Positions 3,757 through 62,168 of a stretch of 64,000 nt of DNA are shown piece by piece. The translations under genes were made by a program, and so were the position numbers. The DNA is from Acidovorax sp. KKS102 (lineage in GTDB: Bacteria; Pseudomonadota; Gammaproteobacteria; Burkholderiales; Burkholderiaceae_C), in assembly GCF_000302535.1 (NCBI RefSeq), contig NC_018708.1:806001-870000 (forward strand), written 5' to 3'. The notes under the pieces are model-generated. The model worked only from the letters and a program-made list of their open reading frames with translations, was not told the origin of the DNA and made no database searches. The stretch's first letter is position 1. Each line of letters starts with the position of its first letter.

Positions 3757-4992
3757 ATGAAAACCCTTCGACTCCGCGCAGGCAAAGAGCGCTCGCTGTT
3801 GCGTCGCCATCCCTGGATCTTTGAATCGGCCATCGCCAAGGGCGGCGGCGACAGCGGCGAGACCGTGCGCGTGGAATCGCACGAAGGCCAGTTTCTGGCC
3901 TGGGCGGCTTACAGCCCCAGCTCGCGCATCCGCGCGCGGGTGTGGAGCTTTGACGAGGCGCAGCGCATTGATGCTCCGTTTTTCATAGCTGCTTGCGCAC
4001 GTTCCATCATCGCCAGAGCCCGATTTGATGTGCAAAGCGATGGTGTGCGCCTGGTGCACGGCGAGTCCGACGGTCTGCCGGGGCTCATCGTGGACCGCTA
4101 TGGCGATACCCTGGTGGCGCAGTTCACCAGCGCAGGCACTGAGCGCTGGAAGGGCGTGATTGCCGATGCGCTGCTGCGCGAGACGGGGCTCACCAAGCTG
4201 TACGAGCGCTCGGACGCCAGCGTGCGTTCGCTGGAAGGTCTGGAGCCCGCCACCGGCTGGCTGCGCGGCGGGCCGACGGGCGCTGCGGGCGATGGCGAGG
4301 GGCCGCCGCTCGAACTGACGATCCGCGAGCACCAGTGGCGCCTGACCCTCAACATCGCCGAGGGCCACAAGACGGGCTTTTATCTGGACCAGCGCGACAG
4401 CCGCAAGCGGTTTGCTGACTACACCCAGCGCCTGGGCTTCAAGCATGTGCTCAACTGCTTTTGCTACACCGGCGGCTTTAGTGTGGCGGCGCTGGCGGGC
4501 ATGCGTGCTGCGGGCAATGTGGCCGACGGGCACGTGACCTCCATCGATTCCTCCGGCCCGGCCCTGGAGCGCGCCCGCGCTCACGTGGCGCTCAATGGGT
4601 TCGATCCGAACCGCGCCACCTTCCTCGATGCCGACGTGAACGCCTCGCTGCGCCAGTTCCTCAAGGAAGGCCAGCGCTTCGACGCCATCATTCTGGACCC
4701 GCCGAAGTTTGCGCCCACTGCGGCGCACGCCGAGCGCGCCGCACGCGCCTACAAGGACATCAACCGGCTGGCGCTGCAGTTGCTGTCGCCCGGGGGCGTG
4801 CTGTTCACCTTCTCTTGCTCAGGCGGCATCAGCGCCGACCTGTTCCACAAGATCGTGGCCTCGGCCGGCGCGGATGCGGGTGTGGACGGCTTCATCCTGG
4901 AGCGCCTGGGCGGCGCGCCCGACCACCCGATGACGCTAGAGTTTCCGGAGGGCGAGTACCTCAAGGGGCTGGTCGTCATGCGCAAGGGGTGA
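3757..4992 (+). CDS. rlmI: Class I SAM-dependent rRNA methyltransferase, RlmI family
   Basis: A 411-residue protein. The family methylates C1962 of 23S rRNA (m5C). An N-terminal PUA-like domain (LRLRAGKERSLLRRHPWIFE) is followed by a linker, then a Rossmann methyltransferase domain with GHKTGFYLDQRDSR, the SAM-binding LNCFCYTGGFSVAAL, and the catalytic-type DPPKFAP. A Gly-rich loop (WLRGGPTGAAGDGEG, about residues 168-182) is longer than in E. coli RlmI. Residues about 72-91 are encoded by a copy of the 58-bp dispersed repeat without loss of frame. There is no clear Shine-Dalgarno; CACAAT sits 7 bases before the ATG, so the transcript may be leaderless. Site specificity is assigned by family only. 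Confidence 0.82.
   Translation: MKTLRLRAGKERSLLRRHPWIFESAIAKGGGDSGETVRVESHEGQFLAWAAYSPSSRIRARVWSFDEAQRIDAPFFIAACARSIIARARFDVQSDGVRLVHGESDGLPGLIVDRYGDTLVAQFTSAGTERWKGVIADALLRETGLTKLYERSDASVRSLEGLEPATGWLRGGPTGAAGDGEGPPLELTIREHQWRLTLNIAEGHKTGFYLDQRDSRKRFADYTQRLGFKHVLNCFCYTGGFSVAALAGMRAAGNVADGHVTSIDSSGPALERARAHVALNGFDPNRATFLDADVNASLRQFLKEGQRFDAIILDPPKFAPTAAHAERAARAYKDINRLALQLLSPGGVLFTFSCSGGISADLFHKIVASAGADAGVDGFILERLGGAPDHPMTLEFPEGEYLKGLVVMRKG
3972..4029 (+). repeat. 58-bp dispersed palindromic repeat, copy A (inside rlmI)
   Basis: It runs from TGCTCCG to ATTTGAT and aligns without gaps over 58 bases with copy B at 9721-9778. Shared core words are ATAGCTGC, GCGCA and TTTGAT. The central GCTGCTTGCGC / GCCAGAGC arms can pair. 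It is read in frame as part of the methyltransferase (frame ATA-GCT-GCT). Confidence 0.75.
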
Positions 4993-5105
4993 GCTTTCCG
5001 GCGCCAGCAGGGGCTTGACAGCCTCGGTAAACTGAAAAAGATGCCCCTGGGTGGGGCACTGCTGCCGCGCAGCGCAAGTATTTGATTCCCTTGAAAGACA
5101 GATTT

Positions 5106-6167
5106 ATGGCACTGATCCCCGTCACCATCCTCACCGGCTTCTTGGGCTCGGGCAAAACGACGTTGCTCAAGCGCCTCTTGAGCGAAGCCCATGGCCAGAA
5201 GATCGCCGTGATCGAGAACGAATTCGGCGAAGAAAACATCGACAACGACATCCTCGTGACCGAGTCCAAGGAGCAGATCGTGCAGATGAGTAACGGCTGC
5301 ATCTGCTGCACCATCCGCGAAGACCTGCGCGAGACGCTGCAACTGCTGGCCGCCAAGAAGCGCAAGAACCTGCTCGACTTTGACCGCATCGTGATCGAAA
5401 CCACCGGCGTGGCCGACCCGGGCCCCGTGGCGCAGACCTTCTTCATGGACGAAGAGATCGCCGAGACTTACCTCATCGACTCGATCATCACGCTGGTGGA
5501 TGCCAAACATGCGCCCCAGCAGCTCAACGACCGCCAGGAAGCGCGCCGCCAGGTGGGGTTTGCGGACCAGATCTTCCTGTCCAAGACCGACCTGGTCAGC
5601 GCCGAGGAAGCCGATGCGCTGATCCACCGCCTCAAGCACATGAACCCGCGCGCGCCCATCAAGGCCGTGCATTTTGGCGAAGTGCCGCTCAAGGAGGTGC
5701 TGGACCTGCGCGGCTTCAACCTCAATGCCAAGCTGGACATCGACCCGGACTTTCTCAAGGAAGAGGAGCACGGGCACGACCACCATGATCACGACCATGA
5801 GCATGGCGAGCACTGCAACCACCCGGCGCACCAGCATGGCCACGAGCACGGGCACCACCATCACCATGACGATGACGTGAAGAGTTTTGTGTACCGCTCG
5901 GACCGCCCGTTCGATCCGGCCAAGCTCGAAGACTTCCTTGGCGCCATCGTCAACATTTACGGCCCGCGCATGCTGCGCTACAAAGGGGTGCTGAATATGA
6001 AAGGCACGGAGCGCAAGGTGATCTTCCAGGGCGTGCATCAGCTCATGGGCAGCGACCTGGGCCCCCAGTGGGCCGAGGGCGAGCCGCGCACCAGCAAGAT
6101 GGTTTTCATTGGCATTGACCTGCCCAAGGACATCTTCTTGCAGGGGCTGGAGCAAAGCCTGGTCTGA
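5106..6167 (+). CDS. CobW/COG0523-family GTPase, His-rich metallochaperone
   Basis: A 353-residue cytoplasmic P-loop GTPase of the G3E/CobW group. Members deliver or handle metals such as zinc, cobalt or nickel. Walker A is GFLGSGKT (residues 11-18), the metal-binding CxCC motif is CICC (65-68), and the G4-type motif is SKTD. Residues about 219-257 form a His/Asp/Glu-rich stretch with more than fifteen histidines, consistent with metal buffering. The C-terminal CobW_C domain ends at VFIGIDLPKDIF. ATG 5106 (MALIPVTILTGF) fits the family start; an upstream ATG at 5082 would add eight residues. It is followed by dksA in the same orientation, a pairing that suggests a zinc connection. The substrate metal cannot be read from sequence. 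Confidence 0.87.
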   Translation: MALIPVTILTGFLGSGKTTLLKRLLSEAHGQKIAVIENEFGEENIDNDILVTESKEQIVQMSNGCICCTIREDLRETLQLLAAKKRKNLLDFDRIVIETTGVADPGPVAQTFFMDEEIAETYLIDSIITLVDAKHAPQQLNDRQEARRQVGFADQIFLSKTDLVSAEEADALIHRLKHMNPRAPIKAVHFGEVPLKEVLDLRGFNLNAKLDIDPDFLKEEEHGHDHHDHDHEHGEHCNHPAHQHGHEHGHHHHHDDDVKSFVYRSDRPFDPAKLEDFLGAIVNIYGPRMLRYKGVLNMKGTERKVIFQGVHQLMGSDLGPQWAEGEPRTSKMVFIGIDLPKDIFLQGLEQSLV

Positions 6168-6344
6168 CCTGCGCACGGGTTTGAGGGGGCGATGGCGCCC
6201 GATTTGTGTTGTATCCGCAACGTTTCCGTTTGCGTCAGCCCAGGTCGATACAATCGCGCCCCGGTAAAACCACCCAAGGCTTGCCACCAGTCCCGGGCCG
6301 TGAGAGCGGCCAAGGGCCCGCCCGTACTGCGAGGAGACCAGGAA

Positions 6345-7142
6345 GTGAAAGCCGACACCAGCAAATCCAAGGGGGCCACCAAGGCAACCCCTGCCGCGGC
6401 GAAAAGCGCCGCCGCCCCAGCAGCACCCAAGGTGGCTGCGAAGGCCGCTGCCAAGGCTGCTGCGGCACCCAAGGTGGCCGCGCCCCCCGCCGTGGCGGCA
6501 CCCGCTGCGGCGCCTGCGCTGCAGGCGGGCTCGCAGGTACCCGTGCGCACAACCCGGCCTTCTTCCCGATTGGCCCAATTGACCGTACCATCCATGGCAC
6601 AGACGGTGGCCTCCACGGCCGCCAAAGCCAGTTATCAACACACCATGCCCACGACCGCGCAAGCGCAGCCCACTTTCACGGCTGCCAAAAAAGACCCCAA
6701 GCTGGCGAACAACTGGAAAACCAAGTCCGTTGCCGAGCTGACCGACGCTGAAGTCATGGCCATGCCCGACAGCGAGTACATGAACGAAAAACAGATGGCG
6801 TTCTTCCGCCTCAAGCTCGTTCAGCTCAAGCAGGACATCCACAACAGCGCCGGCGAAACCACCGAGCACCTGCGTGAAGACACCGTGGTGGTGCCCGACC
6901 CGGCCGACCGCGCCACCATCGAAGAAGAGCACGCACTGGAACTGCGCACCCGCGACCGCGAGCGCAAGCTGCTCAAGAAGATCGAGCAATCTATCGCCCG
7001 CATTGATGCCGGTGACTACGGCTACTGCGACGAAACCGGTGAGCCCATCGGCGTGGGCCGCCTGATCGCTCGCCCCACTGCCACGCTGTCGCTCGAAGCG
7101 CAGCAACGCCGCGAACTCAAGCAGAAGATGTTTGGGGATTGA
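6345..7142 (+). CDS. dksA: RNA polymerase-binding transcription factor DksA, cysteine-poor type
   Basis: With ppGpp, DksA binds the RNA polymerase secondary channel and tunes rRNA and amino-acid promoters. The start is GTG 6345 behind GAGGAGACCAGGA. It gives 265 residues: a ~100-residue Lys/Ala/Pro-rich low-complexity N-terminus, then a normal DksA body. The acidic coiled-coil tip is DPADRATIEEE (E. coli DPVD...). The zinc-finger region keeps only one of four cysteines (YGYCDETGEPIGVGRL...LSLEAQ), a Thr/Leu/Gln-substituted form I associate with alpha- and beta-proteobacterial DksA. ATGs at 6595 and 6646 are alternative starts that would remove the extension. No second dksA is in the window. 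Confidence 0.9.
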   Translation: MKADTSKSKGATKATPAAAKSAAAPAAPKVAAKAAAKAAAAPKVAAPPAVAAPAAAPALQAGSQVPVRTTRPSSRLAQLTVPSMAQTVASTAAKASYQHTMPTTAQAQPTFTAAKKDPKLANNWKTKSVAELTDAEVMAMPDSEYMNEKQMAFFRLKLVQLKQDIHNSAGETTEHLREDTVVVPDPADRATIEEEHALELRTRDRERKLLKKIEQSIARIDAGDYGYCDETGEPIGVGRLIARPTATLSLEAQQRRELKQKMFGD

Positions 7143-7189
7143 GCAGGCAGCGGCCTGTCAATCAACGCGCGCACTCTGCACCCTGAGCC

Positions 7190-8929
7190 ATGAGCAAGGA
7201 AGAATCCACCCCCGGCGGCCTGCTATCGAAGGTGGTGCGGTTCGTGAAGAATCCGACCGTCAACTGGACGGAGCTGGATTCCCTTCAGGACGACCGGGAG
7301 AGCCAGTACAGCAAGCAGATGCTCAAGGAGATGATCGAGCGCAAGCGCCGCAACGACTTTGTGCGGCGCCGCGAATTCGATCAGCTGCGCAAGCTGCGCC
7401 AGCGCGAGGTCTTGCACGGCCAGCGGGTGGAAGACGCTGCAGGGCGGCCCTCGTTCTTCCAGAGCAGCATGGCGTCGCCCGACGAGCGGGCCGTCACGCT
7501 CAAGAAGATCGACGAGATCGAAGCGCAGATGTCCCAGCAGTGGTGGAAGAGCAAGCAGGGCGCCGACGCCCCCACCCAGCCGGGGGTGATGCCTGATTCC
7601 AGCACCGAGGCGTCTTCGGAAGAACAGGCCCGGGCCTACGCACCCACGGTGCCCGGCAGCTTATCCGCCCCGCTGGATACCAAACCCGCCGTACAGCCCC
7701 TGTTCGCCGATGACAGCATGGCCATTGGCCGTTTTGGTGGCACGGACGCCACCATGCGGCCCGGCACCACCCCAACCGTCGAAGCATCCTTCAGCCCTGC
7801 GGCTCCCACGGCTGCGCCCGCGCCCGCATTCGAACCGGAGGAATTCGTGCACGAACCCGATCTTGAAGAAGCCGCCATCCGGTTTGCCAATGGTGACCAC
7901 GCAGGGGCCGAGTCTGGTCTGCTGGAGGTGCTGGCCCAGCACCAGCAGGACGATCCAGCGCAGCAGCTGGAAATCTGGATGACGCTGTTTGACCTGTATC
8001 GGGCCACCGGGCAGCACGACCGTTTTGACACCCTGGCCATCGACTTTGCCGCGCAGTACGGCCGTTCTGCGCCGCTGTGGTTCTCCATGCCGGCGCAGCT
8101 GGGTCTGGCCGCAGAGGCCGCACCCGCCGCCGAGCCCGCCGTCGCCATGCGCCGCGATTTCAGCTGGAACGCACCACCCACCGTCGCCGTCTCTTCGGTG
8201 GCGGCCCTGCAGGCCTCGCTGGCGCGTGCCGCCTCGCCCTGGACCTTGTCTTGGTCGCGCCTCACCTCCATTGACGAGGCTGCGGTGCCCCTGCTGGCCG
8301 ACCAGTTCAGCCAGTGGGCCGACCGTGAAGGGCAGATCGTGTTTTCGGGTGTGGAAAAGCTCCATGCCCTGCTGGATGCCAAGACCCAGTCGGGCGATCG
8401 CTCCAACAGCCCCGAGTGGTGGCGCCTGCGCATGGCCGCCATGCGCCTCATGGGCAAGCCCGACGAATTTGAACTGGTGGCCCTCGATTACTGCGTGACC
8501 TACGAGGTCTCGCCGCCGTCCTGGGTGTCGCCGCGCTGCGGATACTCGGACAACGAAGGGGTTTCGTCTGGTTCCGCCCCGCTGGCGGCGGACAGCGACT
8601 TCATGGCCTCCGACCTGGGCGAGCTGTCGGCCCCGGCCCCGCTGGATGCGGGCCCGGTGGCAGAGCTCAAGGGCCAAATCGATGGCGATGCCACGCCCCT
8701 CTTGCAGCCGTTCGAGGCGCACTTCAAGCCCGGCGTGCCGCTGACCATAGCCTGCGACAAGCTGATCCGGGTGGACTTCGCGGCCGCAGGCTCCGTGCTC
8801 AACTGGGCCGCCGAGCAACAAGGCCACGGCCATGTGATCCAGTTCCACAACCTGCAGCGGCTGGTGGCAATCTTCTTCAACGTGATCGGCATCAACGAGC
8901 ACGCCTGGGTGGTTCCCCGCAAAAACTGA
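7190..8929 (+). CDS. Large hypothetical protein with TPR/FimV-like and STAS-like regions
   Basis: A 579-residue protein of unknown function; no signal peptide or membrane span is visible. Residues 1-90 are charged and helical (KEMIERKRRNDFVRRREFDQLRKL). Residues about 110-220 are Pro/Ala-rich. Residues about 225-285 look like a tetratricopeptide pair (EEAAIRFANGDHAGAESGLLEVLAQH... LFDLYRATGQHDRFDTLAIDFA) as in FimV C-termini. Two later blocks (about 340-400 and 500-579) resemble STAS/MlaB-type folds, e.g. LSWSRLTSIDEAAVPLLADQF and VDFAAAGSVLNWAAEQQ. It sits between dksA and hslV, ATG 47 bases after dksA. Function is not assigned; a scaffold or anti-sigma-antagonist-like role is only a guess. 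Confidence 0.7.
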   Translation: MSKEESTPGGLLSKVVRFVKNPTVNWTELDSLQDDRESQYSKQMLKEMIERKRRNDFVRRREFDQLRKLRQREVLHGQRVEDAAGRPSFFQSSMASPDERAVTLKKIDEIEAQMSQQWWKSKQGADAPTQPGVMPDSSTEASSEEQARAYAPTVPGSLSAPLDTKPAVQPLFADDSMAIGRFGGTDATMRPGTTPTVEASFSPAAPTAAPAPAFEPEEFVHEPDLEEAAIRFANGDHAGAESGLLEVLAQHQQDDPAQQLEIWMTLFDLYRATGQHDRFDTLAIDFAAQYGRSAPLWFSMPAQLGLAAEAAPAAEPAVAMRRDFSWNAPPTVAVSSVAALQASLARAASPWTLSWSRLTSIDEAAVPLLADQFSQWADREGQIVFSGVEKLHALLDAKTQSGDRSNSPEWWRLRMAAMRLMGKPDEFELVALDYCVTYEVSPPSWVSPRCGYSDNEGVSSGSAPLAADSDFMASDLGELSAPAPLDAGPVAELKGQIDGDATPLLQPFEAHFKPGVPLTIACDKLIRVDFAAAGSVLNWAAEQQGHGHVIQFHNLQRLVAIFFNVIGINEHAWVVPRKN

Positions 8930-9094
8930 GGCGAGTCGGCGCTGCCACGGGGGACTCGGCGGCTCTTTCTTTTCCTTGCAGCCTGCGGTTTCGGGGGAGC
9001 CGCCTTCTGCTGCGCGCGTGAGGGGGCTTTCTGCCCATCTTCCCGCTGGGTGGCTGGCTTGCAAATTGGGTCACCGCCCCCATCTGCCGCAGCT

Positions 9095-9661: not shown

Positions 9662-9720
9662 GCGTACGGCGGTAGAACCGGCCCCACGTTGGCCGCACGG
9701 TCAGCCCCTGACGGGCTGAT

Positions 9721-9778: not shown

Positions 9779-9793
9779 ACCAGGAAGACCTGT

Positions 9794-12735: not shown

Positions 12736-12736
12736 C

Positions 12737-29469: not shown

Positions 29470-31251
29470 TCAGAAAGACTCCCAGTCATCGTTGTTGTCT
29501 GCCGCAGGCTTGGGGCTGCTGGCCTTGGGGGGCAATGCCGCCGCTGGGGCAGGTGAAGGCGCCGCTGGGCGAGGGGCTGCCGGCGCCTTGGCCAGGGCTG
29601 GGCGGGGTGTTGCGGCGCGCACTGCAGGAGCCACGGCGGGGCGTGGCGCGGCTGCGGGCCGGCTGGCCGGGGCGGGCGCGGAGGTGCTGCCGTTCACACG
29701 GAAGAGCGCCACCACCTGGGTGAGCTTCATGGCTTGCTCGCGCAGACTGTCGGCGGCGGCGGTGGATTCTTCCACCAGTGCCGAGTTTTGCTGCGTCATC
29801 TGGTCCAGCTGGTTCATGGCCGTGTTGACCTGCGCAATGCCCTGGCTCTGCTCCGACGTGGCGGCACGGATCTCGCCAATGATGTCGGTCACGCGCTGTA
29901 CGCTGGCCACGATCTCCGTCATGGTGGCACCCGCATTGCCCACCAGGGCCGTGCCGGACTCCACCTTCTCGACCGACGCGCCGATCAGCGACTTGATCTC
30001 CTTGGCGGCTTCGGCGCTGCGCTGCGCCAGGCTGCGCACCTCGCCGGCCACCACAGCAAAGCCCCGGCCCTGCTCGCCAGCACGGGCGGCCTCCACGGCG
30101 GCATTGAGCGCCAGGATGTTGGTCTGGAACGCAATGCCGTCGATGACACCGATGATGTCGCTGATCTTCTTGCTGCTGGCGTTGATGTCCTGCATGGTGG
30201 ACACCACCTGCGACACCACCTCGCCCCCGCGTGCCGCCACTTCGGCGGCGGACGTGGCCATCTGGTTGGCGGTCTGGGCGGAGTCGGAGGTCTGCTTCAC
30301 CGTGCTGGTCAGCTCCTCCATGCTGCTGGCTGTGGTCTGCAGGTTGCTGGCCGTGTCTTCGGTGCGGTGGGCCAGGTCGTTGTTGCCTTGCGCAATTTCG
30401 CTGGACGCGGTGGCGATGCTGTCGGTGGCCGAGCGCACTTCGGTCACCAGCTTGCGCAGCGAGGTCACCATGTGTGCGAGGCCGTCCAGCATGGAGCCCG
30501 GAGGGGCGGCCGGAATCTGCGCGTCCAGGTTGCCTTCGGCCACCTCGGACATGATGGCAATGGCATGGGTGGGCTCGCCGCCAATCTGGCGCAATACCGA
30601 GCGCGACACCAGCAGGCCGATCACCCCCACCGCCACAAACACCGCCAGCACCAGCGCCAGGCTCGACCACAGGGCCTGGCGCAGCATGACATCCACGTCG
30701 TCCGTATACAGCCCGGAGCCGACCATCCAGTTCCAGCCATCCACCTTGACGATGTACTGCAGCTTGGGCACGGGCGTCTGCTGGCCGGGACGCGCAAACA
30801 TGGTGGGCACAAAGGCCTTGCCATCCTTGCTGTTGCGCATGCCGTTGACCAGCAGGCCGATGATGTCCACGCCCGAACCGTCCTTGACCTTGCCGAGCAT
30901 GTCCTGCCCGTCCCATTCGGTCTTGAAGGGGTGCATCACGCCCACGCCCTCCGTGGTCCAGATGTAGAAATATTCGGTCTTGCCCTCGGGGCCGCCGTAA
31001 CGGGCAATGCGCAGGGCGTCCTTGGCGGCTTTCTGCGCATCTTCCACCGACATGGCGCCGCTGGCGGCCTTGGCTTGGTAGCCGACCACGATGCTGTGGG
31101 CGGACTGGACGGCGGTGGTCAGCATGTCCTTGCGGGACTCGGTGATCAGCCGTCGCTCCTGGAGGAGGGACAGGATGGCCATGATCAGCAGCGCCGTGAG
31201 CGCGGTGCCGATCATGAGCATGACCTTCATCTTGAAACTGAGCTTGCTCAT
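29470..31251 (-). CDS. Methyl-accepting chemotaxis protein with sCache_2 sensor and CheR-tether tail
   Basis: A 593-residue chemoreceptor. TM1 at about 9-30, a periplasmic single-Cache domain at about 35-190 ([55 protein letters not shown]), TM2 at about 193-217, HAMP, and the signalling hairpin [20 protein letters not shown]. An Ala/Pro-rich linker of about 60 residues ends in NDDWESF, resembling the NWETF-type pentapeptide that tethers CheR/CheB. ATG 31251 behind CAGGAGA is chosen over an upstream ATG at 31332. sCache_2 domains often bind small organic acids; the ligand here is unknown. It sits between ftsZ and lpxC, convergent with ftsZ. Confidence 0.92.
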
Positions 31252-32581: not shown

Positions 32582-32603
32582 CCTCTGCCCTATACTCGCG
32601 CCT

Positions 32604-34748
<2,145 letters not shown>

Positions 34749-34944: not shown

Positions 34945-36594
34945 ATGAACGCTCTCGGCCGCTTCTCCATCCGCACGCGTCTCTACTTCGGAACCGTCTT
35001 CTCCCTGATCCTTCTGGTCGTCATCGGTGCCATGGGCTACGTAGCCCTGGACCGCACGCGCGGCACCCTGCAGGTGCTGTTTTCAGAGCGGGTGCAGACG
35101 CTGACCGACATGTCCGAGCTGCGCACCACCCTGGGTGACCTGCGCCGGACCGAAAAAGACATCATCATCAACTTCAACAACTCGGTCGAGGTCTCTGCCC
35201 TGCGCGAGTCCTGGGCCAAGACCCTGACCTCCCTGCGCAAGCGCCTGGCCGATGTGCGCCAGGTGCAGTCGGGCGATGCCGATTTTGTGGCCTCCATCGA
35301 CAAATCGCTGGACGAGATCAAGCAGTACGAAACCGGCATTTCGCCCATCTTCGAGAAGATCGAAGGCGCGCAGCTGGACGGCGCGGGTGGCGGCGCCTAC
35401 GCCGATCGCCTGAAGGTCCACATGGAGGCCACCGACAAGCTGTTCTCCAGCCTCGCGGACTCGGCCCGTGCGCAGATGGACGAGGCCCGTGCGGGCGTCG
35501 AATCACGCACCTCCACCATGGCCGCGCTGATCGGTGTGGGCCTGGTGCTGGCGCTGGCGGTTCTGATTCCGCTCACGTTCTTCAGCGTGCGCTCCATCAC
35601 CAAATCCATCGGACAGGCGCAGGAGCTGGCCGAACGCATTGCCAGCGGCGACCTGTCGCGCGATGTGGCGGCCATGAACCAGGACGAAGTGGGCCAGCTG
35701 GTGGGCGCCATGGGCCGCATGCAGGACTCGCTGCGTGACCTGGTGCGCCAGGTGCAGGACGCGGCGGGCAACATCTCCACCGCCAGCTCCGAGATCGCCA
35801 GCGGCAACCACGATCTGAGCCACCGCACCGAGCAGACGGCGGCCAACCTGGAAGAGACGGCTTCGTCGATGGAAGTGCTGACCAGCACCGTCCAGCAAAG
35901 CGCCCAGGCCTCGCGCCAGGCCAGCGACTTCGCGTCGACCGCTGCCGAGGTGGCCGCACGCGGCGGCGCCGTGGTGTCGCAGGTGGTGACCACCATGGAC
36001 CAGATCACCACCAGCTCGCGCAAGATCGCCGACATCACGGGCGTGATCGATTCGATTGCGTTCCAGACCAACATCCTGGCGCTGAATGCCGCCGTGGAAG
36101 CCGCCCGTGCCGGTGAGCAAGGCCGTGGCTTTGCGGTGGTGGCCAGCGAGGTGCGCAACCTCGCGCAGCGCAGCGCCGAAGCGGCCAAGGAGATCAAGGG
36201 CCTGATCGGTTCGTCGGTGGAGCGGGTGGAAGACGGCTCGCGCCTGGTGAGCCAGGCCGGTCAGACCATGACGGAGATCGTGAGCAGCGTGCGGCGTGTG
36301 TCCGACATCATTGCGGAGATCACCGCCTCGTCGGCCGAGCAGAGCGACAACATCGGCCAGATCAGCCAGTCGGTCACCCAGCTGGACCAAATGACGCAGC
36401 AGAACGCGGCGCTGGTGGAGGAATCCACCGCAGCGTCCGAGTCGCTGCGTGAGCAGGCCCACCACCTCAACAGCGCGGTCAGCCAGTTCAAGCTGCAGGA
36501 TGGCGCATCGCCCTCGGCCACGTTCAACACCCCCGCGCCCGCAGCACCCGCCGTCGCCCAGGTGGCGCGCCGACCGGCGTTGCAGATCCGGTAA
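34945..36594 (+). CDS. Methyl-accepting chemotaxis protein (4HB-type sensor)
   Basis: A 549-residue chemoreceptor. TM1 about 12-33, a helical periplasmic domain of about 155 residues ([19 protein letters not shown] is typical of 4HB_MCP), TM2 about 192-213, HAMP with [15 protein letters not shown], and the hairpin tip [20 protein letters not shown]. It ends in PALQIR with no CheR tether. The Shine-Dalgarno AAGGAAG is 5 bases before the ATG. Preceded by a sigma-54 promoter; convergent with gspE. Confidence 0.92.
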
Positions 36595-36602
36595 TTTCAG
36601 GT

Positions 36603-36659
36603 GTTTTTGGCTGGTGGCGCTAGTGCTTTATGTGCTGGCTGCTATCATATGTATAGCAA
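36603..36659 (-). repeat. 58-bp dispersed palindromic repeat, copy F (between chemoreceptor and gspE)
   Basis: On the minus strand it reads TTTGCTATACATATGATAGC, GCCAGCACATAAAGCACTAG, then CCAGCCAAAAAC. It fills the gap between the convergent chemoreceptor and gspE stops and may serve as a terminator-like hairpin there. Confidence 0.65.
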
Positions 36660-36660
36660 A

Positions 36661-38049
36661 TCAGTCCCGCGTCACCCGCAGCACTTCTTCGCGGCTGGTG
36701 ATGCCGGCGGCAATCAGGCGTTCGCCATCCTCTCGCATCAGTGCCATGCCATCGGCCATGGCGGCGGCGCGGATGTCGGCCTCTGACGCCTGGGCGTGGA
36801 TTTGCGCGCGGATCGCGTCCGTGGTCACCAGCAGTTCGAACACGCCGGTGCGGCCGGTGTAACCCGTCTGGCCGCAGTGCTCGCAGCCCGCGCCATGGCA
36901 GTGGGTGCAGAACTTGCGCACCAGGCGCTGGGCCAGCACGCCCAGCAGCGACGACGACAACAGGAAGGGCTCCACGCCCATGTCCGTCAGGCGCGTGACG
37001 GCGCTGGCCGCATCGTTGGTGTGCAGCGTGGCCAGCACCAGGTGGCCGGTGAGTGACGCCTGGATGGCGATCTGCGCGGTCTCGAAGTCGCGGATTTCAC
37101 CAATCATGATGATGTCCGGGTCCTGCCGCAGGATGGCGCGCAGGGCCTTGGCAAAGGTCAGCTCGATCTTGCTGTTGACCTGGGTTTGCCCCACGCCGGG
37201 CAGCTCGTATTCGATGGGGTCTTCCACCGTCATGATGTTGTTGCGCGTGGCGTCGAGCCGGCCCAGCGCCGCGTACAGCGTGGTGGTCTTGCCCGAGCCC
37301 GTGGGGCCGGTGACCAGGATGATGCCGTGCGGCTGGCCGATCAGGCCCTCGAAGCGGTGCAGGGTGTCGCCCTGCATGCCCACGGCCTCCAGGCTCAGCT
37401 TGCTTTCGCTCTTGTCCAAAAGACGCAGCACCGCGCGTTCGCCATGGGCGCTGGGCAGGGTGGACACGCGCACGTCGATGGCGCGGGTGCCCAGGCGCAG
37501 GCTGATGCGGCCGTCCTGGGGCAGGCGTTTTTCGCTGATGTCCAGGTCGGCCATGATCTTCAGGCGCGAGATCAGGGCCGCGTGCAGCGCGCGGTTGGGC
37601 TGCACCACTTCGCGCAGCGTGCCGTCCACCCGAAAGCGCACGCTGCTGTGGCGCTCGTAGGGCTCGATGTGGATGTCGCTCGCGCCGTCGCGCGCGGCCT
37701 GCGTGAGCAGGGCGTTGAGCATGCGGATGATGGGCGCGTCGCCGGCCGACTCCAGCAAGTCTTCGACGGCCGGCAGCTCCTGCATCATGCGCGAGAGGTC
37801 GGCGTCGCTCTCGACCTCGCTCACCACGGTGGCAGCGCTCGATTCGCTGTGCGAATAGGCCGCGCTGATGCGCTGGGCCAGGGCCGGGGCATCGAGCGGC
37901 AGCAGCTGCTGCACGGGGTGCTTGCGCAGCACTTCGGACAGCGCGCCCGCGTCGGGGCTGGGGCCGTGCCACAGCACCAGCTGGTGGCCGTCGTCCTCCA
38001 GCAGCAGTTGGGCGGTGCGGGCAAAGGCGTAGGGCAGGGGGTGGCGCAT
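36661..38049 (-). CDS. gspE: Type II secretion ATPase GspE
   Basis: A 462-residue cytoplasmic hexameric ATPase powering pseudopilus assembly. Order: N-domain (about 1-110), then SDIHIEPYERHSSVRFRVDG, Walker A GPTGSGKTTTLYAAL, the Asp box VEDPIEYELPGVGQTQVN, Walker B IMIGEIRDFETAQIA, and the His box LVLATLHTNDA. The C-terminal zinc module is CTHCHGAGCEHC. It is last gene of the leftward gsp operon, 13 bases after gspD. No gspF follows. Confidence 0.96.
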   Translation of the reverse strand: MRHPLPYAFARTAQLLLEDDGHQLVLWHGPSPDAGALSEVLRKHPVQQLLPLDAPALAQRISAAYSHSESSAATVVSEVESDADLSRMMQELPAVEDLLESAGDAPIIRMLNALLTQAARDGASDIHIEPYERHSSVRFRVDGTLREVVQPNRALHAALISRLKIMADLDISEKRLPQDGRISLRLGTRAIDVRVSTLPSAHGERAVLRLLDKSESKLSLEAVGMQGDTLHRFEGLIGQPHGIILVTGPTGSGKTTTLYAALGRLDATRNNIMTVEDPIEYELPGVGQTQVNSKIELTFAKALRAILRQDPDIIMIGEIRDFETAQIAIQASLTGHLVLATLHTNDAASAVTRLTDMGVEPFLLSSSLLGVLAQRLVRKFCTHCHGAGCEHCGQTGYTGRTGVFELLVTTDAIRAQIHAQASEADIRAAAMADGMALMREDGERLIAAGITSREEVLRVTRD

Positions 38050-48352: not shown

Positions 48353-48409
48353 TGCTTCTGTTTTGATAGCTGTCAAGGCATGTTCAACCAGCGCTTGCAG
48401 CCATTTTTG
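48353..48409 (+). repeat. 58-bp dispersed palindromic repeat, copy D (between cobS and ilvA)
   Basis: It reads TGCTTCTGTTTTGATAGCTG, TCAAGGCATGTTCAACCAGC, GCTTGCAGCCATTTTTG. It lies immediately after the ilvA stop on the other strand and before the cobS start; the hairpin could help end the ilvA transcript. Confidence 0.75.
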
Positions 48410-50099: not shown

Positions 50100-50245
50100 A
50101 AAAAAAAGCCCCGGGCCGTGAGGCCTGGGGCTAATCCATCCTTTGAGGAGATGGAGGAGACAATCGGTGCGAGGCAAGTGCCGGATTCCAGGCTTCTTGC
50201 CGCCTGCCGGTTCCTTTCTGTTCGAAAGCGGCAGCGCATGGGCGA
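50100..50245 (-). ncRNA. Putative sRNA or terminated leader upstream of ilvA with CUCCUCC motifs
   Basis: The 3' end is well defined: stem AGCCCC-GGCC / GGCC-GGGGCT (50107-50132) followed on the minus strand by eight T (50107-50100), a textbook Rho-independent terminator. Just before it the minus strand has TGTCTCCTCCATCTCCTC (about 50142-50162), two anti-Shine-Dalgarno-like stretches. The 5' end is a guess; TAAACT (minus strand, near 50252) is a weak -10. It could be an independent small RNA or an attenuated ilvA leader. No conserved leader peptide with an in-frame stop before the terminator was found. Confidence 0.45.
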
Positions 50246-57300: not shown

Positions 57301-57397
57301 TCAGGCGCGGGCGTCTGACTTCTCCACGCACACACCGCTCACCCACCGGAAGTCTTCGTACCCTTCCATCCCACCCTTTCACTACCAGGAGATTTCC

Positions 57398-58983
57398 ATG
57401 AAATTCCAGAAAAAAGTCGCTGTGACCGCTCTCTTCGCTGCGCTGGCTGCGACGAGTTTGGTAGCTCAGGCACAGACCGTTCGCATCGCCAACCAGGGCG
57501 ATGCCCTGTCGATGGACCCGCACTCACTCAACGAGTCGCTGCAGCTGAGCGTGACCAGCAACGTTTACGAACCCCTGGTGGGCCGCAACAAGGACCTGAG
57601 CCTTGCGCCCGCATTGGCTACCAGCTGGAAGCAGATTGCCCCCACCGTGTGGCGCTTCGAACTGCGCAAGGGTGTGCAATTCCACGACGGCACGCCGTTC
57701 ACGGCCGACGATGTGGTGTTTAGCTTCGCCCGCATGAAGGGCGATGGCTCTGACATGAAGGCCACCAACAGCGACATCAAGCAGGTGCGCAAGATCGACG
57801 ACCACACGGTAGAGATCGACACCATGGCTCCCCAGCCCATCCTTCCGGACGTGATCACCACTTCCTACATCATGAGCAAGAAGTGGTGCGAGACCAATCA
57901 GGCCACAACCCCGGTAGACCGCCGCAAGGGCATCGAGAACGCGGCGTCGTTCCGCGCCAATGGCACCGGCCCCTTCCGCCTGCGTGAGCGCCAGCCCAAC
58001 GTGCGCACGGTGTTCGTGCGCAATGGCGCCTACTGGGACAAGATCGAAGGCAACGCCACCGAAGTTGTGTTCACGCCCATCGGTAACGATGCCACGCGCG
58101 TGGCGGCCCTGCTGTCGGGCGAAGTGGACGTGATGGAGCCTGTGCCAGTGCAGGACATCGAGCGTATCAACGGCAGCGCCAATGCCCGCGCCATCACTGG
58201 CCCTGAGCTGCGCACCATCTTCCTGGGCATGGACCAGAAACGCGACGAGCTGCTGTACTCCAACGTCAAGGGCAAGAACCCCTTCAAGGACAAGCGCGTG
58301 CGCCAGGCCTTCTACCAGGCCATCGACATCGAAGGCATCAAGAAGACTGTGATGCGGGGCGCCTCCAACCCCTCCGCGCTGATGGTGGGCCCCGGTATCA
58401 ACGGCTTCCAGCCGGATGTCAAGCGCCTGCCCTATGAGACGTCGAAGCCGCCAAGAAGCTCATGGTTGAAGCCGGTTACCCCAACGGCTTTGAAGTCACC
58501 ATGAACTGTCCCAACGATCGCTACGTGAACGACGGCCGCATCTGCCAGACGGTGGCTGCGAACCTGTCGCGCATCAACGTCAAGATCAACCTCGCGGCTG
58601 AAACCAAAGGCACGTACTTCCCCAAGGTGCTGCGCCGTGACACCAGCTTCTACATGCTGGGCTGGACGCCCACCACGTACGACTCGCACAACGCCCTCAA
58701 TGCGCTGATGATCTGCCCGGACGACAAGACCGGCGCGGGCCAGTTCAACCTGGGTGCGTACTGCAACCCCAAGCTGGACGAACTGACCAAGAAGATCCTG
58801 GTCGAGACCGACAAGCCCAAGCGCGACGCCATGATCAAGGAAGCCTTTGAAGTGCATACCGCCGATGTGGGCCACCTGCCGCTGCACCAGCAGGCGCTGG
58901 CCTGGGGCGTGAGCAAGAAGGTCAAGCTCGTGCAGATGGCCGACAACTACATGCCGTTCAAGTGGATCACCGTGAGCAAGTGA
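57398..58983 (+). pseudogene. Second peptide-binding protein (SBP family 5), frameshifted
   Basis: Frame 1 (57398-58504) encodes a signal peptide (VAQA/QTVRIA, about residue 26) and the first ~350 residues of an SBP_bac_5 protein; the rest continues in another frame up to 58983 (MVEAGYPNGFEVTMNCPN... PFKWITVSK). The break is at 58434-58440 (TATGAGAC), where a likely two-base GA insertion turns PYDVEAAKK into PYETSKPPR. The paralogue at 53385 keeps frame here (PYSVDASKK). Both halves remain well conserved, so this is a very recent mutation or a sequence error. The Shine-Dalgarno is CAGGAG. Intact, it would be about 528 residues. Confidence 0.85.
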
Positions 58984-59046
58984 GCCCGCGTTTTTCCGAC
59001 TGATCGATACGACGACAACAACAAAGCCACCGGCTGATCCAAGCCC

Positions 59047-59085
59047 GCAACAACACCCGCAGCTACCCGCTGCGCGTGTTGTTGC
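59047..59085 (+). other. Stem-loop between second binding protein and dppC
   Basis: Outer arms GCAACAACAC and GTGTTGTTGC (10 bp, perfect) enclose inner arms CGCAGC and GCTGCG with loop TACCC. It occupies the same position behind a binding-protein gene as the hairpin at 54983. There is no T-run, so stabilisation is more likely than termination. Confidence 0.65.
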
Positions 59086-59105
59086 CCGTTGACTGGTTTC
59101 CCACA

Positions 59106-60017
59106 ATGAAAACTACCCTTGCCCGCTGGTTCGACAGCGACGTCGGCTACAGCTTCCGCACATCGCCGGTCGCCATGCTGGCCGCTGCCATTGCGCTGAT
59201 TTGCCTGTTCTGTTCGGTGTTTGCCGGATGGGTGGCACCCCACAACCCGTTCGACCTGACCACGCTGGAGCTGAGCGATGCGCGCCTGCCCCCGGCATGG
59301 AGCGAAATGGGCTCGATGAAATACCCCCTGGGCACCGATGACCAGGGCCGCGACATCCTCTCGGCGCTGATCTACGGCGCGCGCATCTCGCTCGTGGTGG
59401 GCATCGCCTCGGTGGTGCTGTCCGTGGTGGTGGGCGTGGCCTTTGGCCTGCTGGCAGGCTTTCGGGGCGGCTGGGTGGATGCCGTGCTCATGCGCCTGTG
59501 CGACGTGATGCTGTCCTTTCCCGCCATCCTGGTCGCGCTGCTGATTGCTGGCGTGGGCCGTGCGCTGTTCCCCAATGCGCATGAGTCGCTGGCGTTTGGC
59601 GTGCTGATCCTGTCCATCTCCCTCACCGGCTGGGTGCAATATGCCCGCACGGTGCGCGGCTCTACGCTGGTAGAGCGCAACAAGGAATACGTGCAGGCCG
59701 CCCGCGTGACGGGCGTCTCGCCGCTGCGCATCATGCGCAAGCACGTGCTGCCCAACGTGATGGGGCCCGTGCTGGTGCTGGCCACCATCCAGGTGGCCAC
59801 GGCCATCATCACCGAAGCTACTCTGTCTTTCCTGGGCGTGGGCGCGCCGCCCACTTCGCCCTCGCTGGGCACGCTGATCCGTATCGGCAACGACTACCTG
59901 TTCTCGGGCGAATGGTGGATCACCGTCTTCCCTGGCGCCATGCTGGTGCTGATTGCTTTGTCCGTGAACCTGCTGGGTGACTGGCTGCGCGACGCTCTCA
60001 ACCCCCGCCTGCGTTGA
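59106..60017 (+). CDS. dppC: Peptide ABC transporter permease, DppC type
   Basis: A 303-residue inner-membrane permease with about six spans. An N-terminal span (AMLAAAIALICLFCSVFAGWVAPHNPFD) is followed by PLGTDDQGRDILSALIYGARISL, the DppC/OppC hallmark. EAA-loop: NKEYVQAARVTGVSPLRIMRKHVLPNVMGPVLV. It ends SVNLLGDWLRDALNPRLR as usual. ATG 59106; the frame is open to 59076 within the hairpin. The stop is 29 bases before the dppD ATG. Confidence 0.94.
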   Translation: MKTTLARWFDSDVGYSFRTSPVAMLAAAIALICLFCSVFAGWVAPHNPFDLTTLELSDARLPPAWSEMGSMKYPLGTDDQGRDILSALIYGARISLVVGIASVVLSVVVGVAFGLLAGFRGGWVDAVLMRLCDVMLSFPAILVALLIAGVGRALFPNAHESLAFGVLILSISLTGWVQYARTVRGSTLVERNKEYVQAARVTGVSPLRIMRKHVLPNVMGPVLVLATIQVATAIITEATLSFLGVGAPPTSPSLGTLIRIGNDYLFSGEWWITVFPGAMLVLIALSVNLLGDWLRDALNPRLR

Positions 60018-60046
60018 ACAAGAACAAGAAGAAAAGCGATATTTCC

Positions 60047-61033
60047 ATGAGCCTTCTCGAAGTCAAAAACCTCGTTGTCGAATTCCCGGGCCGCCGCGGT
60101 ACCCTGCGCGCTCTGGACGACATTTCCTTTTCCATCGCACCCGGCGAGATTCTGGGCGTGGTGGGAGAGTCCGGCGCCGGCAAGTCGCTCACCGGCGCGG
60201 CCATCATCGGCCTGCTGGAACCGCCCGGCCGTGTGGCCTCGGGCCAGATCCTGCTGGAGGGTCAGCGCATCGACAACCTCAATAACGAGGAGATGCGCCA
60301 CATCCGGGGCCGCCGCATCGGTGCCATCTTTCAAGACCCGCTGACCTCGCTGAACCCGCTGTACACCGTGGGCCGTCAGCTCACCGAAACCATCCTGGCC
60401 CACCTGCCCGTGAATGCGGCCGAAGCCCGCCAGCGCGCCATCCAGCTGCTCAAGGACACCGGCATTCCCGCCGCCGAAGAGCGCATCGACCACTACCCGC
60501 ACCAGTTTTCGGGGGGCATGCGCCAGCGCGTCGTGATCGCCCTGGCCCTGGCCGCCGAGCCCAAGCTCATCGTGGCCGACGAGCCCACCACAGCGCTCGA
60601 CGTGTCTATCCAGGCGCAGATCATCACGCTGCTGAAAAACATCTGCAAATCGCGTGGCGCGGCCGTCATGCTCATCACCCACGACATGGGCGTGATCGCC
60701 GAAACCTGCGACCGCGTGGCCGTGCTGTACGCCGGGCGTGTGGCCGAGATCGGCCCGGTGCATGACGTGATCAACCAGCCATCCCACCCCTACACCGCCG
60801 GGTTGATGGCCTCCATCCCCGACATGGAACAGGACCGCGAGCGCCTCAACCAGATCGACGGCGCCATGCCGCGCCTCAACGCCATCCCCAAGGGCTGTGC
60901 CTACAACCCCCGCTGCCCCAAGACCTTTGACCGCTGCATGACCGACCGCCCCGACCTGATGGATGCCGGCGCTACCCGCGCTGCCTGCTGGCTGCATGCC
61001 GGTGCAACGACCCAAGCCAAGGTGACCGCATGA
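60047..61033 (+). CDS. dppD: Peptide ABC transporter ATPase, DppD type
   Basis: A 328-residue ABC ATPase. Walker [12 protein letters not shown]-loop [10 protein letters not shown], signature FSGGMRQRV, Walker [14 protein letters not shown]-loop LITHDMG. The C-terminal oligopeptide-transporter domain carries [14 protein letters not shown], a cysteine motif typical of DppD/OppD that can bind an iron-sulfur cluster. ATG 60047 ([12 protein letters not shown]) is chosen; a TTG at 60014 overlapping dppC is an alternative. It overlaps dppF by four bases. Confidence 0.95.
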
Positions 61034-62043
61034 GCGCCGCCGCAACGAATAGCAAGGCGCTGGTGCAGGCGCATGACCTGGCCAAGACCTTTGACGTCTC
61101 TGCCCCGTGGCTCAACCGCGTGATCGAGCGCAAGCCCCGCACCCTGCTGCATGCGGTGGACGGCGTGAGCTTCGAGATCGAGAAGGGCAAGACGCTGGCG
61201 CTGGTGGGCGAATCCGGCTGCGGCAAGAGCACCGTGGCTCGACTGCTGGTGGGCCTGTACGACCCTACGCGCGGCGGTCTCACGTTTGATGGGCAAGACG
61301 CCCATGCGGCCTTCAAGGGCAACAACGCCAAGGCCATGCGCCGCCGCATCCAGATGATCTTCCAGGACCCGTACGCCAGCCTGAACCCCCGCTGGCTGGT
61401 GGAGGACATCATCGGCGAGCCCCTCAAGGAGCATGGGCTCATCACCGACAAGGAGCAGCTCAAGCAACGTGTGGGCGAGTTGCTGCAATCGGTGGGCCTG
61501 TCGCCGCTCGACATGGTCAAGTACCCGCACCAGTTCTCCGGCGGCCAGCGCCAGCGCATCTCCATTGCGCGTGCCCTGGCCACCGAGCCCGAGTTTCTGG
61601 TCTGCGACGAGCCCACCAGCGCGCTCGACGTGTCGGTGCAGGCGCAGGTGCTCAACATCATGAAGGACTTGCAGCGCGAGCGGCAGCTCACGTATCTGTT
61701 CATCAGCCACAACCTGGCCGTGGTGCGCCATGTGAGCGACCAGGTCGGCGTGATGTACCTGGGCCGCCTGGTGGAGCTGGCCGACAAGCACACGCTGTTC
61801 GACACGCCGCGCCACCCCTACACGCGCATGCTGCTCGATGCCATCCCCAAGATGCACGACACCGGCAAGGCGCGCACACCGGTGCAGGGCGAGGTGCCCA
61901 ACCCGCTGAACCCGCCACCCGGCTGTGCGTTCAACCCGCGCTGCCCGCATGTCAATGACCGCTGCCGCACGGAGCGCCCCAAGCTCCAGAGCATCGGCGG
62001 CATCCGCATTGCGTGCCATGCGGTGGAGGAAGGGCGGATCTGA
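61030..62043 (+). CDS. dppF: Peptide ABC transporter ATPase, DppF type
   Basis: A 337-residue ABC ATPase pairing with DppD. Walker A GESGCGKSTVA, Q-loop FQDPYASLNPRW, signature FSGGQRQRI, Walker B LVCDEPTSALD, H-loop FISHNLAV. The C-terminal motif CAFNPRCPHVNDRC matches the family. The start overlaps dppD (ATGA). Last gene of the operon; repeat copy C follows. Confidence 0.95.
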   Translation: MSAAATNSKALVQAHDLAKTFDVSAPWLNRVIERKPRTLLHAVDGVSFEIEKGKTLALVGESGCGKSTVARLLVGLYDPTRGGLTFDGQDAHAAFKGNNAKAMRRRIQMIFQDPYASLNPRWLVEDIIGEPLKEHGLITDKEQLKQRVGELLQSVGLSPLDMVKYPHQFSGGQRQRISIARALATEPEFLVCDEPTSALDVSVQAQVLNIMKDLQRERQLTYLFISHNLAVVRHVSDQVGVMYLGRLVELADKHTLFDTPRHPYTRMLLDAIPKMHDTGKARTPVQGEVPNPLNPPPGCAFNPRCPHVNDRCRTERPKLQSIGGIRIACHAVEEGRI

Positions 62044-62112
62044 TGCCCAGCGCCGCACCGGCGTGCGGCGAAGTCGCCCGGTGTGCGGGTCAAGGGTGCA
62101 GGTGGATGCGTT

Positions 62113-62168
62113 TGCTATAAAAATATAGCTATTGATGCATGATTAACTAGCACCTGCGCCCGTTTTTT
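62113..62168 (+). repeat. 58-bp dispersed palindromic repeat, copy C (after dppF)
   Basis: It reads TGCTATAAAAATATAGCTAT, TGATGCATGATTAACTAGCA, CCTGCGCCCGTTTTTT. It lies between the convergent dppF and lysR stops and ends in a T-run, so it could act as terminator for dppF. Confidence 0.7.

Follow-up and report, generated by a model that had tools for sequence, protein, structure and literature searches.

What kind of sequence recurs both between genes and inside them, in different reading frames and on either strand? The first-pass annotation had proposed nine clear copies of such a family in the window, by which we mean the whole 64,000-nucleotide stretch analysed here. We scored the window with an HMM trained on 29 copies from elsewhere in the genome and none from the window. 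All nine copies were recovered at their positions, with 67.9 to 9.8 bits against a best match of 9.0 bits when the window was dinucleotide-shuffled 50 times, the murG copy being weak. Five lie in genes (rlmI, gspD, cobC, cobS and murG) and four between genes (9721, 36603, 48353 and 62113), as follows, with scores from this outside-window HMM:

3961..4038, plus strand: motif copy in rlmI (sense), encoding DAPFFIAACARSIIARARFDVQ; 37.6 bits
9709..9780, plus strand: motif copy in the hslV-hslU gap; 67.9 bits
23256..23329, plus strand: weak motif copy at the murG 3' end (sense); 9.8 bits, marginal
36591..36670, minus strand: motif copy in the gap where a chemoreceptor gene and gspE converge; 36.0 bits
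40246..40320, minus strand: motif copy at the gspD 5' end (signal-peptide region, sense); 30.9 bits
47290..47348, minus strand: motif copy inside cobC (sense); 19.3 bits
47673..47746, plus strand: motif copy within cobS, in antisense orientation; 15.9 bits
48345..48410, plus strand: motif copy in the cobS-ilvA gap; 38.3 bits
62102..62175, plus strand: motif copy in the gap where a dppF-type ABC transporter gene and a LysR-type gene converge; 22.4 bits

The copy at 48353, annotated as cobS/ilvA, does sit between these two genes, in the gap and outside either of them. Partial copies claimed in murE, murC and murD fell away: they scored 5.9 (opposite strand), 4.4 and 2.3 bits, the level of the shuffles, and nothing there reached 12 bits with the genus profile. 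With the genus HMM, the murG copy scored 24.2 bits and was not in that training set, the cobS copy 28.8 bits, and the rlmI copy, which was in the training set, 44.5 bits.

The motif opens with T-G/A-C-T, followed by an A-tract, ATAGCT, some variable bases and GCGC; past a variable dialect centre come GCGC, GCC, another A-tract and a string of A's. Its consensus GC is 43%. Its abundance is far above chance. Scanning 400 kb of the KKS102 genome with the genus HMM gave 57 copies, ~1 per 7 kb, which extrapolates to hundreds of fixed sites, and the maximum in 2 Mb of control sequence was 9.2 bits. A pattern search gave 114 matches in this genome and 0 for the reversed pattern, and a profile scan against shuffled sequence likewise found the motif clearly commoner in the genome. 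The 40 places found by BLAST did not cluster in one part of the chromosome. By pattern search, 42 of 47 genus genomes hold the motif, with no match in the other five and one in a sixth (hereafter the six motif-poor genomes), and in an order-wide sample it was confined to its own family. Exact fits to the 27-base core numbered 2 among the KKS102 matches listed; A. delafieldii DSM 64, which we take to be the same type strain as ATCC 17505T, was the source of 6 of the 15 exact-core loci.

We compared the positions of the 57 sites with those in two related genomes, G017 and G014, whose median gene identities to KKS102 are 93.9% and 87.6%. The motif was at the same place and in the same orientation at 48 of 51 resolved sites in G017 (6 of the 57 unresolved) and at 43 of 44 in G014 (13 of the 57 unresolved). 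Shared sites in both genomes include the hslV-hslU copy, between genes for Proteasome-family and AAA_2 proteins, the copy beside gspE, whose gap (neighbours MCPsignal and T2SSE) is of equal length, and the copy after dppF, whose neighbour genes were assigned by Pfam. Within genes, the rlmI copy was found in 20 of 21 genus orthologues and was absent only from G004, a motif-free genome, while the gspD copy exceeded 8 bits in 20 of the 22 genus loci with a 5' end, being absent only from motif-free G004 and G002. The cobS site reaches 46.5 bits with the outside-window HMM in G021 and has decayed in some species.

Rickettsia palindromic elements, the precedent that the first-pass annotation offered for coding repeats, insert in frame and lengthen the protein. 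A gap analysis against G004 found no net length change at the motif in rlmI, gspD, cobC and cobS: cobC aligns without any indel, in G004, gspD carries 9 additional bases upstream of the motif, and a 7-base shift in the cobS alignment cancels out. Because the genic motifs show no net length change relative to orthologues without them and the host peptide is largely retained, a coding insertion of the Rickettsia type is unsupported. At the genic sites compared, the motif arises by point substitution and not by insertion.

The gaps between genes offer more room for a non-autonomous mobile palindrome of the REP/MITE kind, moved by a RAYT-type transposase and able to enter genes, and we regard this explanation as very improbable. 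The high copy number, with 50 of 57 copies placed in gaps by a home-made gene caller, would suit it, as would the single Y1_Tnp gene of the KKS102 genome; at two intergenic sites one genome has a gap 51–63 bp shorter, about the length of the motif, with diverged flanks, and the cobS-ilvA gap of G004 is likewise shorter and holds no copy. However, no site pair among three genomes had precise ends or a target duplication, the positions are fixed, and genic motifs are unchanged in length. Of the 47 genus genomes, 44 carry Y1_Tnp genes, and the six motif-poor ones are all among them. Just after the KKS102 Y1_Tnp gene lie 21 bases similar to the start of the motif, with a score of only 2 bits, and the best motif match across the 3.3-kb Y1_Tnp locus reached 3.9 bits, with none above 4 bits.

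The genic copies are encoded by codon choice. In each of five genes (rlmI, murG, gspD, cobC and cobS), 0 of 1000 synonymous recodings matched the observed score, the closest approach being in cobC (best 16.4 bits, observed 19.8). G004 retains the RlmI peptide with GC-rich codons and not the motif codons, and by rlmI it groups among motif bearers. In other genera, the rlmI site scored at least 20 bits in 8 of the 10 genomes that bear the motif and in 0 of the 8 motif-free ones having the gene, and orthologues from distant families did not have the same codons at the genic copies. Synonymous divergence in rlmI is only slightly lower in the motif than in the rest of the gene (0.269 vs 0.305; window rank 120 of 382). 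Whatever recognises it, a genome-wide DNA signal constrains genes here, in codon choice and apparently in protein sequence, as in the FF-x-AA stretch of RlmI.

Placement relative to genes bears on whether the motif might act as RNA. The median distance from motif to gene end was 18 bp; divergent gaps were avoided (motif in 1 of 38, p = 0.0016) and 9 of 27 convergent gaps carried a copy. Tandem gaps held 26 copies in the same orientation and 13 in the opposite one, and the preference for conserved gene neighbourhoods was borderline (44/196 vs 2/30 gaps, p = 0.051). An RNA hairpin at gene ends, acting as a terminator, mRNA stabiliser or processing site, would account for the favoured gene ends and convergent gaps, and by eye the CTTG...CAAG dialect can form a good stem and the cobS-ilvA copy has paired changes in some species. 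Pairs 32-60 and 38-54 also form above independence in KKS102 copies (72 vs 67.1 ± 1.4 and 64 vs 61.7 ± 0.7). We nevertheless consider such a hairpin improbable. A conserved palindromic stem was not found among the 18 stem pairs tested: most match independence in both KKS102 and G014 copies, pair 42-50 falls below it, and two of the three inner pairs of the KKS102 dialect are formed in just 24 and 13 of the 83 copies. The A-tracts are tolerated as runs of A or of T, the cobS copy is antisense, both orientations occur in tandem gaps, and an Rfam search gave no match overlapping motif copies. The palindromic, hairpin-forming character first ascribed to the family is thus not borne out, its stem columns varying mostly independently and four of five window copies folding as DNA no better than shuffles.

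The strongest mutual information lies instead in the A-tract columns, and the hairpin columns barely covary. Columns 22-24 read AAA, TTT, AAT or ATT in 74 of 82 KKS102 copies, and columns 66-68 read TTT or AAA in 67 of 82. At columns 41/50, A/T is found in 32 of 54 KKS102 copies and T/A in 25 of 54 G014 copies, and variant dialect centres occur across the genus and family. At column 50, identity is 0.29 between orthologues and 0.53 between paralogues, whereas at columns 22, 66 and 67 it is 0.90–0.95 between orthologues and ~0.5 between paralogues. Between species, two positions have changed across the whole genome, and the columns beside them have retained orthologous identity.

A further candidate is an element that overwrites sequence already matching it in part, its copies being made uniform within a genome by ectopic gene conversion or from a single-stranded DNA donor. 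In its favour, dialect centre columns are closer to one another inside a genome than across orthologues, and several centre positions of the cobS-ilvA copy do differ between KKS102 and G022, whose orthologue has a different dialect centre. This possibility seems to us a slim one: columns a few bases off keep 0.90–0.95 orthologous identity, so only very short conversion tracts that stay within the centre would do, and a search limited to RAYT-type genes found no donor or enzyme. The first-pass annotation had spoken of overwriting; it was right that this is not plain insertion, and substitution in place is the better term, given the orthologous memory and the column-wise dialect shift. Overall, its genome-wide family, whose genic copies occupy different frames and both strands, stands, and the palindrome and its Rickettsia precedent do not.

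The copies are best read as a single type of recognition site in duplex DNA, ~62 bp long and degenerate, and we put at about 0.88 the probability that it is maintained through recognition in trans, by a factor that we infer. The recogniser may be an intracellular chromosome-organising or regulatory protein, the site being kept by direct selection and unrelated to uptake. The A-tract columns, fixed sites and dialect shift would fit this equally, as would the location near gene ends and the avoidance of divergent gaps, and a relaxed consensus is described as typical of such sites (PMC1626085). We hold it to be unlikely, though a serious alternative. For a structural function, the absence or near-absence of the motif from the six motif-poor genomes would be surprising; its information content seems above what one class of site needs, and the 40 BLAST places show no bias towards a chromosome region.

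In behaviour the motif most resembles a DNA uptake signal. Uptake sequences are described as not being insertions, as stable at homologous places, preferentially non-coding and somewhat regularly spaced, with AT-rich flanks, clade types and loss (PMC1626085); the motif displays substitution, stability, gap preference, spacing, AT-rich flanks, clade types and loss. The same source gives as their hallmark a strong consensus with many perfect copies. The motif, at ~62 bp, 1 per 7 kb and with a relaxed consensus, lacks the short core, the density of ~1 per kb and the many perfect copies. That natural transformation uses it as an uptake-type watermark has, in our judgement, close to an even chance. 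A trans-acting factor would recognise the motif genome-wide; cells would prefer DNA with their own dialect, the uptake machinery presumably being the recogniser; and recombination of the preferred DNA would fix motif-improving alleles at homologous places, by drive rather than direct selection. The motif would so be maintained at fixed places, both in gaps and, as far as coding allows, in genes.

Reports of competence cut both ways. A. temperans and A. facilis, two of four Acidovorax species tested, were competent, and no cross-species transformation among Acidovorax was detected in the work reported (PMC4212676). Transformation was also not detected there for A. delafieldii ATCC 17505T, which, given the 6 exact-core loci of DSM 64, counts against an uptake role. 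The borderline neighbourhood preference and the only slightly lower synonymous divergence of the rlmI motif weigh on the same side. Of the 47 genus genomes, 44 encode pilins of the ComP_DUS family (PF16732), among them all six that are motif-poor; the KKS102 match is only partial, at 40 bits, and ComEC is present in 5 of the 6 motif-poor genomes. If the uptake reading is true, it would supply the missing sequence that makes natural transformation species-specific in the Comamonadaceae. Somewhat more tentatively, the motif may represent a third uptake-signal system, one that evolved independently and lies outside Neisseriaceae and Pasteurellaceae: ~62 bp long, family-wide, with species dialects, lost more than once, and read by duplex shape (A-tracts) together with base contacts. 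Such a system would account for the species-specific transformation reported in Acidovorax and call for a new kind of receptor.

Comparison with known systems indicates what is particular to this motif. BRE (Hot et al. 2011) is described as ~90 bp, 69% GC in Bordetella, often tandem, and at most 29 copies per genome in that search (PMC3110155); it too is found in Comamonadaceae including Acidovorax, with some genic copies, whereas the motif is ~62 bp, 43% GC and present at 57 per 400 kb, and is set apart from BRE by this description. The first ~20–30 profile positions of Pfam DUF1010 (PF06231) match antisense motif translations; that family is modelled as a protein, whereas the conserved object here looks like DNA, and annotators should be warned that some DUF1010 'proteins' probably begin as translations of a DNA signal. 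The motif also suggests a Comamonadaceae-type origin for DNA carried in a blaOXA-2 gene cassette. REP/BIME with RAYT, and the Rickettsia palindromic elements, are short repeats in many copies, some of them genic in the Rickettsia case, as in the motif; unlike these moving or inserting sequences, the motif has sites that are fixed across the genomes compared, no residues added at the genic sites examined and no conserved stem. Relative to the DUS of Neisseriaceae and the USS of Pasteurellaceae (PMC1626085, PMC3630211), it is longer (~62 bp vs a 9–12 bp core), about seven times sparser (1 per 7 kb vs ~1 per kb) and relaxed where their consensus is strong, and it belongs to a different bacterial family. 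With them it shares, as far as these accounts describe them, a genome-wide distribution, origin by substitution, stability at homologous places, a preference for gaps with genic copies too, AT-rich flanking segments (in USS), clade dialects, and absence or loss in some lineages.

We scored the nine main copies of the motif described in the first-pass annotation, all of which lie where it had placed them. With an HMM trained on 29 copies from the rest of the genome, outside the window, they ranged from 67.9 to 9.8 bits and exceeded the best match among 50 dinucleotide shuffles of the window (9.0 bits), whereas the three "partial" copies proposed in murE, murC and murD scored 5.9 to 2.3 bits and fell below this level. 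A profile re-estimated from 84 copies of three genomes gave 60.3 to 19.8 bits for the nine copies. Five of the nine are included in this training set; the murG, cobC, cobS and 62113 copies lie outside it, although it may include their positional counterparts in relatives. Pfam matches support the names rlmI, gspD, cobS, cobC and murG, and were also obtained for hslV, hslU, gspE, ilvA, a dppF-type ABC protein, two chemoreceptors and a LysR-type regulator; these assignments are at the family level, the exact gene names being those of the first-pass annotation. No Rfam family matched at the motif copies. Other features observed in the window were as follows.

29731-30321 and 35869-36459, inverted stretches of 591 nt that are 77% alike, within two opposite-strand chemoreceptor (MCPsignal) genes
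32598-32721, forward strand, TPP riboswitch (60.7 bits), with a long ORF downstream at 32751-34748
50101-50162, reverse strand, Betaproteobacteria toxic small RNA (Rfam RF02278, 67.5 bits), unrelated to the motif

The repeat family extends well beyond the window, as a genome scan confirmed. Copies scoring at least 12 bits number 57 in 400 kb of the KKS102 genome, and 55 and 58 in 400 kb of the comparison genomes G017 and G014, compared to a maximum of 9.2 bits in 2 Mb of Markov control sequence with the re-estimated profile. This density is about 1 per 7 kb, and by extrapolation would give about 740 copies per genome; the KKS102 chromosome is complete at 5.2 Mb. A motif pattern allowing up to 3 mismatches matched in 42 of 47 genus genomes, with 114 matches in KKS102 and the highest number, 276, in G020, while the reversed control pattern had zero matches in the same 47. 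There were no matches in G002, G004, G287, G296 and G307, and one in G294. Four of these six motif-poor genomes (G004, G294, G296 and G307, 6.8–7.5 Mb) are the largest among the 47 searched. The exact 27-base core was found at 15 loci of the GTDB collection, every one labelled Acidovorax. The own-dialect pattern matched 30 of 250 family genomes and, in an order-wide sample, 3 of 300, these three falling within the 9 genomes that represent the own family in the sample, with none in the 291 from other families of the order; relatives with a strongly differing dialect would be missed by these patterns. Searches by blastn with one consensus, which degenerate copies would escape, matched 2 of 72,556 plasmid records and 0 of 50,697 phage records.

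We placed the 57 copies relative to 352 genes called with a home-made gene caller. Fifty lie in gaps and 7 inside called genes, the latter an undercount because the starts called for gspD and cobC lie too far downstream. The median distance from the motif edge to the stop codon of the adjacent gene was 18 bp (59 edges). Among gaps of at least 50 bp, copies occupy 36 of 161 tandem, 9 of 27 convergent and 1 of 38 divergent gaps (p = 0.0016); they occur in 44 of 196 gaps with both neighbors conserved in G017 and in 2 of the 30 other gaps (p = 0.051). The copies are spaced a little more evenly than expected at random, with a coefficient of variation of 0.79 compared to 0.97; a fraction of 0.047 of random site sets is as even.

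Comparison between genomes indicates that the sites are fixed. Relative to G017, 48 of the 57 KKS102 sites are in the same place and orientation, with 3 absent and 6 unresolved, and relative to G014, 43 are present, 1 absent and 13 unresolved; in the reverse direction, 43 of the 58 G014 sites are present in KKS102, 3 absent and 12 unresolved. Within the genus, rlmI carries the motif in 20 of 21 orthologues, the sole exception being motif-free G004, and 20 of 22 gspD loci score above 8 bits (a 3′ fragment, L095, is left out of this count), the exceptions being motif-free G004 and G002. An rlmI orthologue was not found in G002. The motif region of these exceptions is without indels, G004 gspD being 9 bases longer upstream of the motif, and the net length change relative to G004 is zero in cobC and cobS, where a 7-base shift in the cobS alignment cancels out. 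The best motif score among the G004 and G002 loci is 9.6 bits, and the cobC and cobS motifs have decayed in some species. At two sites the gap is 51–63 bp shorter in one genome, approximately the motif length, and G004 also has a shorter cobS-ilvA gap. The flanks of the two gaps have diverged and show no visible duplication of a target; thus, an indel may have added or removed the motif there. We conclude that the motif does not behave as a mobile palindrome, and regard a mobile element as very improbable, the two shorter gaps having raised its odds slightly. RAYT-driven mobility was rejected, there being a single such gene in KKS102 with no link to the motif, as was the use of G002 as an empty-site outgroup for gaps, since only 22 of 352 KKS102 genes were found in the G002 stretch compared. 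The genus genome G309 contains 36 strong full-length Y1 transposase matches, 34 with an identical score.

The copies inside genes show in codon choice and, apparently, in the protein sequence. In 1000 synonymous recodings of each gene, sampled according to codon frequencies in the called genes, the observed score was never reached (best recoding against observed, in bits: rlmI 16.4 vs 44.5, murG 4.5 vs 24.3, gspD 16.7 vs 48.0, cobC 16.4 vs 19.8, cobS 7.4 vs 28.8). Among the codons of the rlmI copy are rare ones, including ATA (0.58 per thousand) and AGA (0.36 per thousand). Taken alone, synonymous conservation gives a weak signal in this gene, the motif ranking 120 of 382 windows. The genic copies, described in the first-pass annotation as repeats lying within host genes, are not shared with distant orthologues, the order-level outgroup rlmI, gspD and cobS loci scoring at most 5.9 bits. 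For rlmI in other genera we chose 20 family genomes with the motif and 10 without, of which 10 and 8 yielded an orthologue, and the remaining 12 (10 bearers, 2 motif-free) were left out of the site comparison. The site scores at least 20 bits in 8 of 10 bearers and 0 of 8 motif-free genomes (p = 0.001, which overstates independence because the genomes are related), while FF-x-AA is present at the site in all 10 bearers and also in 2 of the 8 motif-free genomes (G066 and G083). The rlmI tree places G004 among the bearers (one gene, one fork, support 0.958); the gspD protein tree gave no placement for G002 or G004. G004 rlmI retains the motif-type peptide with its codons replaced, and its synonymous difference from bearers is 0.590 within the motif and 0.329 elsewhere. 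This is what loss of motif maintenance should look like.

Within the motif, the strongest mutual information is found at alignment columns 22-24, which are AAA, TTT, AAT or ATT in 74 of 82 KKS102 copies, and columns 66-68, which are TTT or AAA in 67 of 82. The palindromic hairpin of the first-pass annotation was not borne out: most of the 18 predicted stem pairs form no more often than independence would predict, with pairs 32-60 and 38-54 more than 3 standard deviations over this expectation in KKS102 copies and 42-50 under it. An RNA or DNA hairpin as the conserved feature was rejected on the mutual information, folding and stem-pair tests. Thus, what is conserved resembles a DNA duplex whose A-tracts we infer to lie about four helical turns apart. 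The center of the motif differs between species, columns 41/50 being A/T in 32 of 54 KKS102 copies and T/A in 25 of 54 G014 copies. Across 41 KKS102-G014 pairs, agreement at column 50 is 0.29 for orthologues and 0.53 for paralogues, whereas at columns 22, 66 and 67 it is 0.90–0.95 and about 0.5. Sites are therefore inherited in place with particular positions shifting together, a joint shift that points to a putative common recognizer.

Among the open-access papers listed for repeats, uptake sequences and DUF1010, which included work on the beta-proteobacterial repeat element (BRE) and on DUS/USS, there was no description of the motif, although it may be described elsewhere. Papers matching the motif core strings were off topic by title and the start of the abstract, and PMC7160566 was rejected as a prior description, its two core strings lying in mutagenesis oligonucleotides in the passages that carry them. 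The main text of the RepRanger paper (PMC12306157) does not contain Acidovorax, Comamonadaceae, Burkholderiales or Betaproteobacteria, nor that of the GTAG-REP paper (PMC3733652) Acidovorax, Comamonadaceae, Delftia, Variovorax, Polaromonas or Verminephrobacter. The BRE differs from the motif in size, GC and arrangement, in the portions of PMC3110155 compared. When the motif is translated in antisense, Pfam DUF1010 (PF06231) aligns to it from the start of the profile. Four such translations, chosen from 58 frames, score 17.8–21.9 bits, under the curated cut-off of 25, and in an annotated DUF1010 ORF (92.1 bits) a motif copy read in antisense accounts for residues ~18 to 33. The start of PF06231 looks like a conceptual antisense translation of the motif, and thus some ORFs annotated as DUF1010 may not encode proteins. 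A motif copy of the CTTG...CAAG dialect, antisense to an ORF annotated DUF1010, was also observed in the DNA that follows blaOXA-2 within a class 1 integron of a Vibrio anguillarum plasmid (CP076070.1, L193 1490-1560), which suggests a motif-bearing bacterium of Comamonadaceae type as the source of this cassette DNA.

Finally, we compared the motif to DNA uptake sequences. Natural competence is reported for A. temperans and A. facilis, two of the four species of the genus tested, and cross-species transformation within Acidovorax was not detected for any of them; the portions of this paper (PMC4212676) that discuss uptake sequences do not identify one. The same paper detected no transformation of A. 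delafieldii, although the A. delafieldii genome carries the motif. No correlation with the motif was seen for ComP_DUS pilins or ComEC. The uptake-sequence profile, as set out in excerpts of PMC1626085 and PMC3630211, comprises origin by substitution, fixed homologous places, gap preference, AT-rich flanks, dialects and sporadic absence, every one of which is common to the motif. However, the motif is longer and sparser, with a relaxed consensus. Weighing the shared profile and the competence of A. temperans and A. facilis against these differences, the pilin and ComEC distribution and A. delafieldii, we give a probability of 0.45–0.5 that the motif works most like an uptake signal, without classing it as an uptake sequence.
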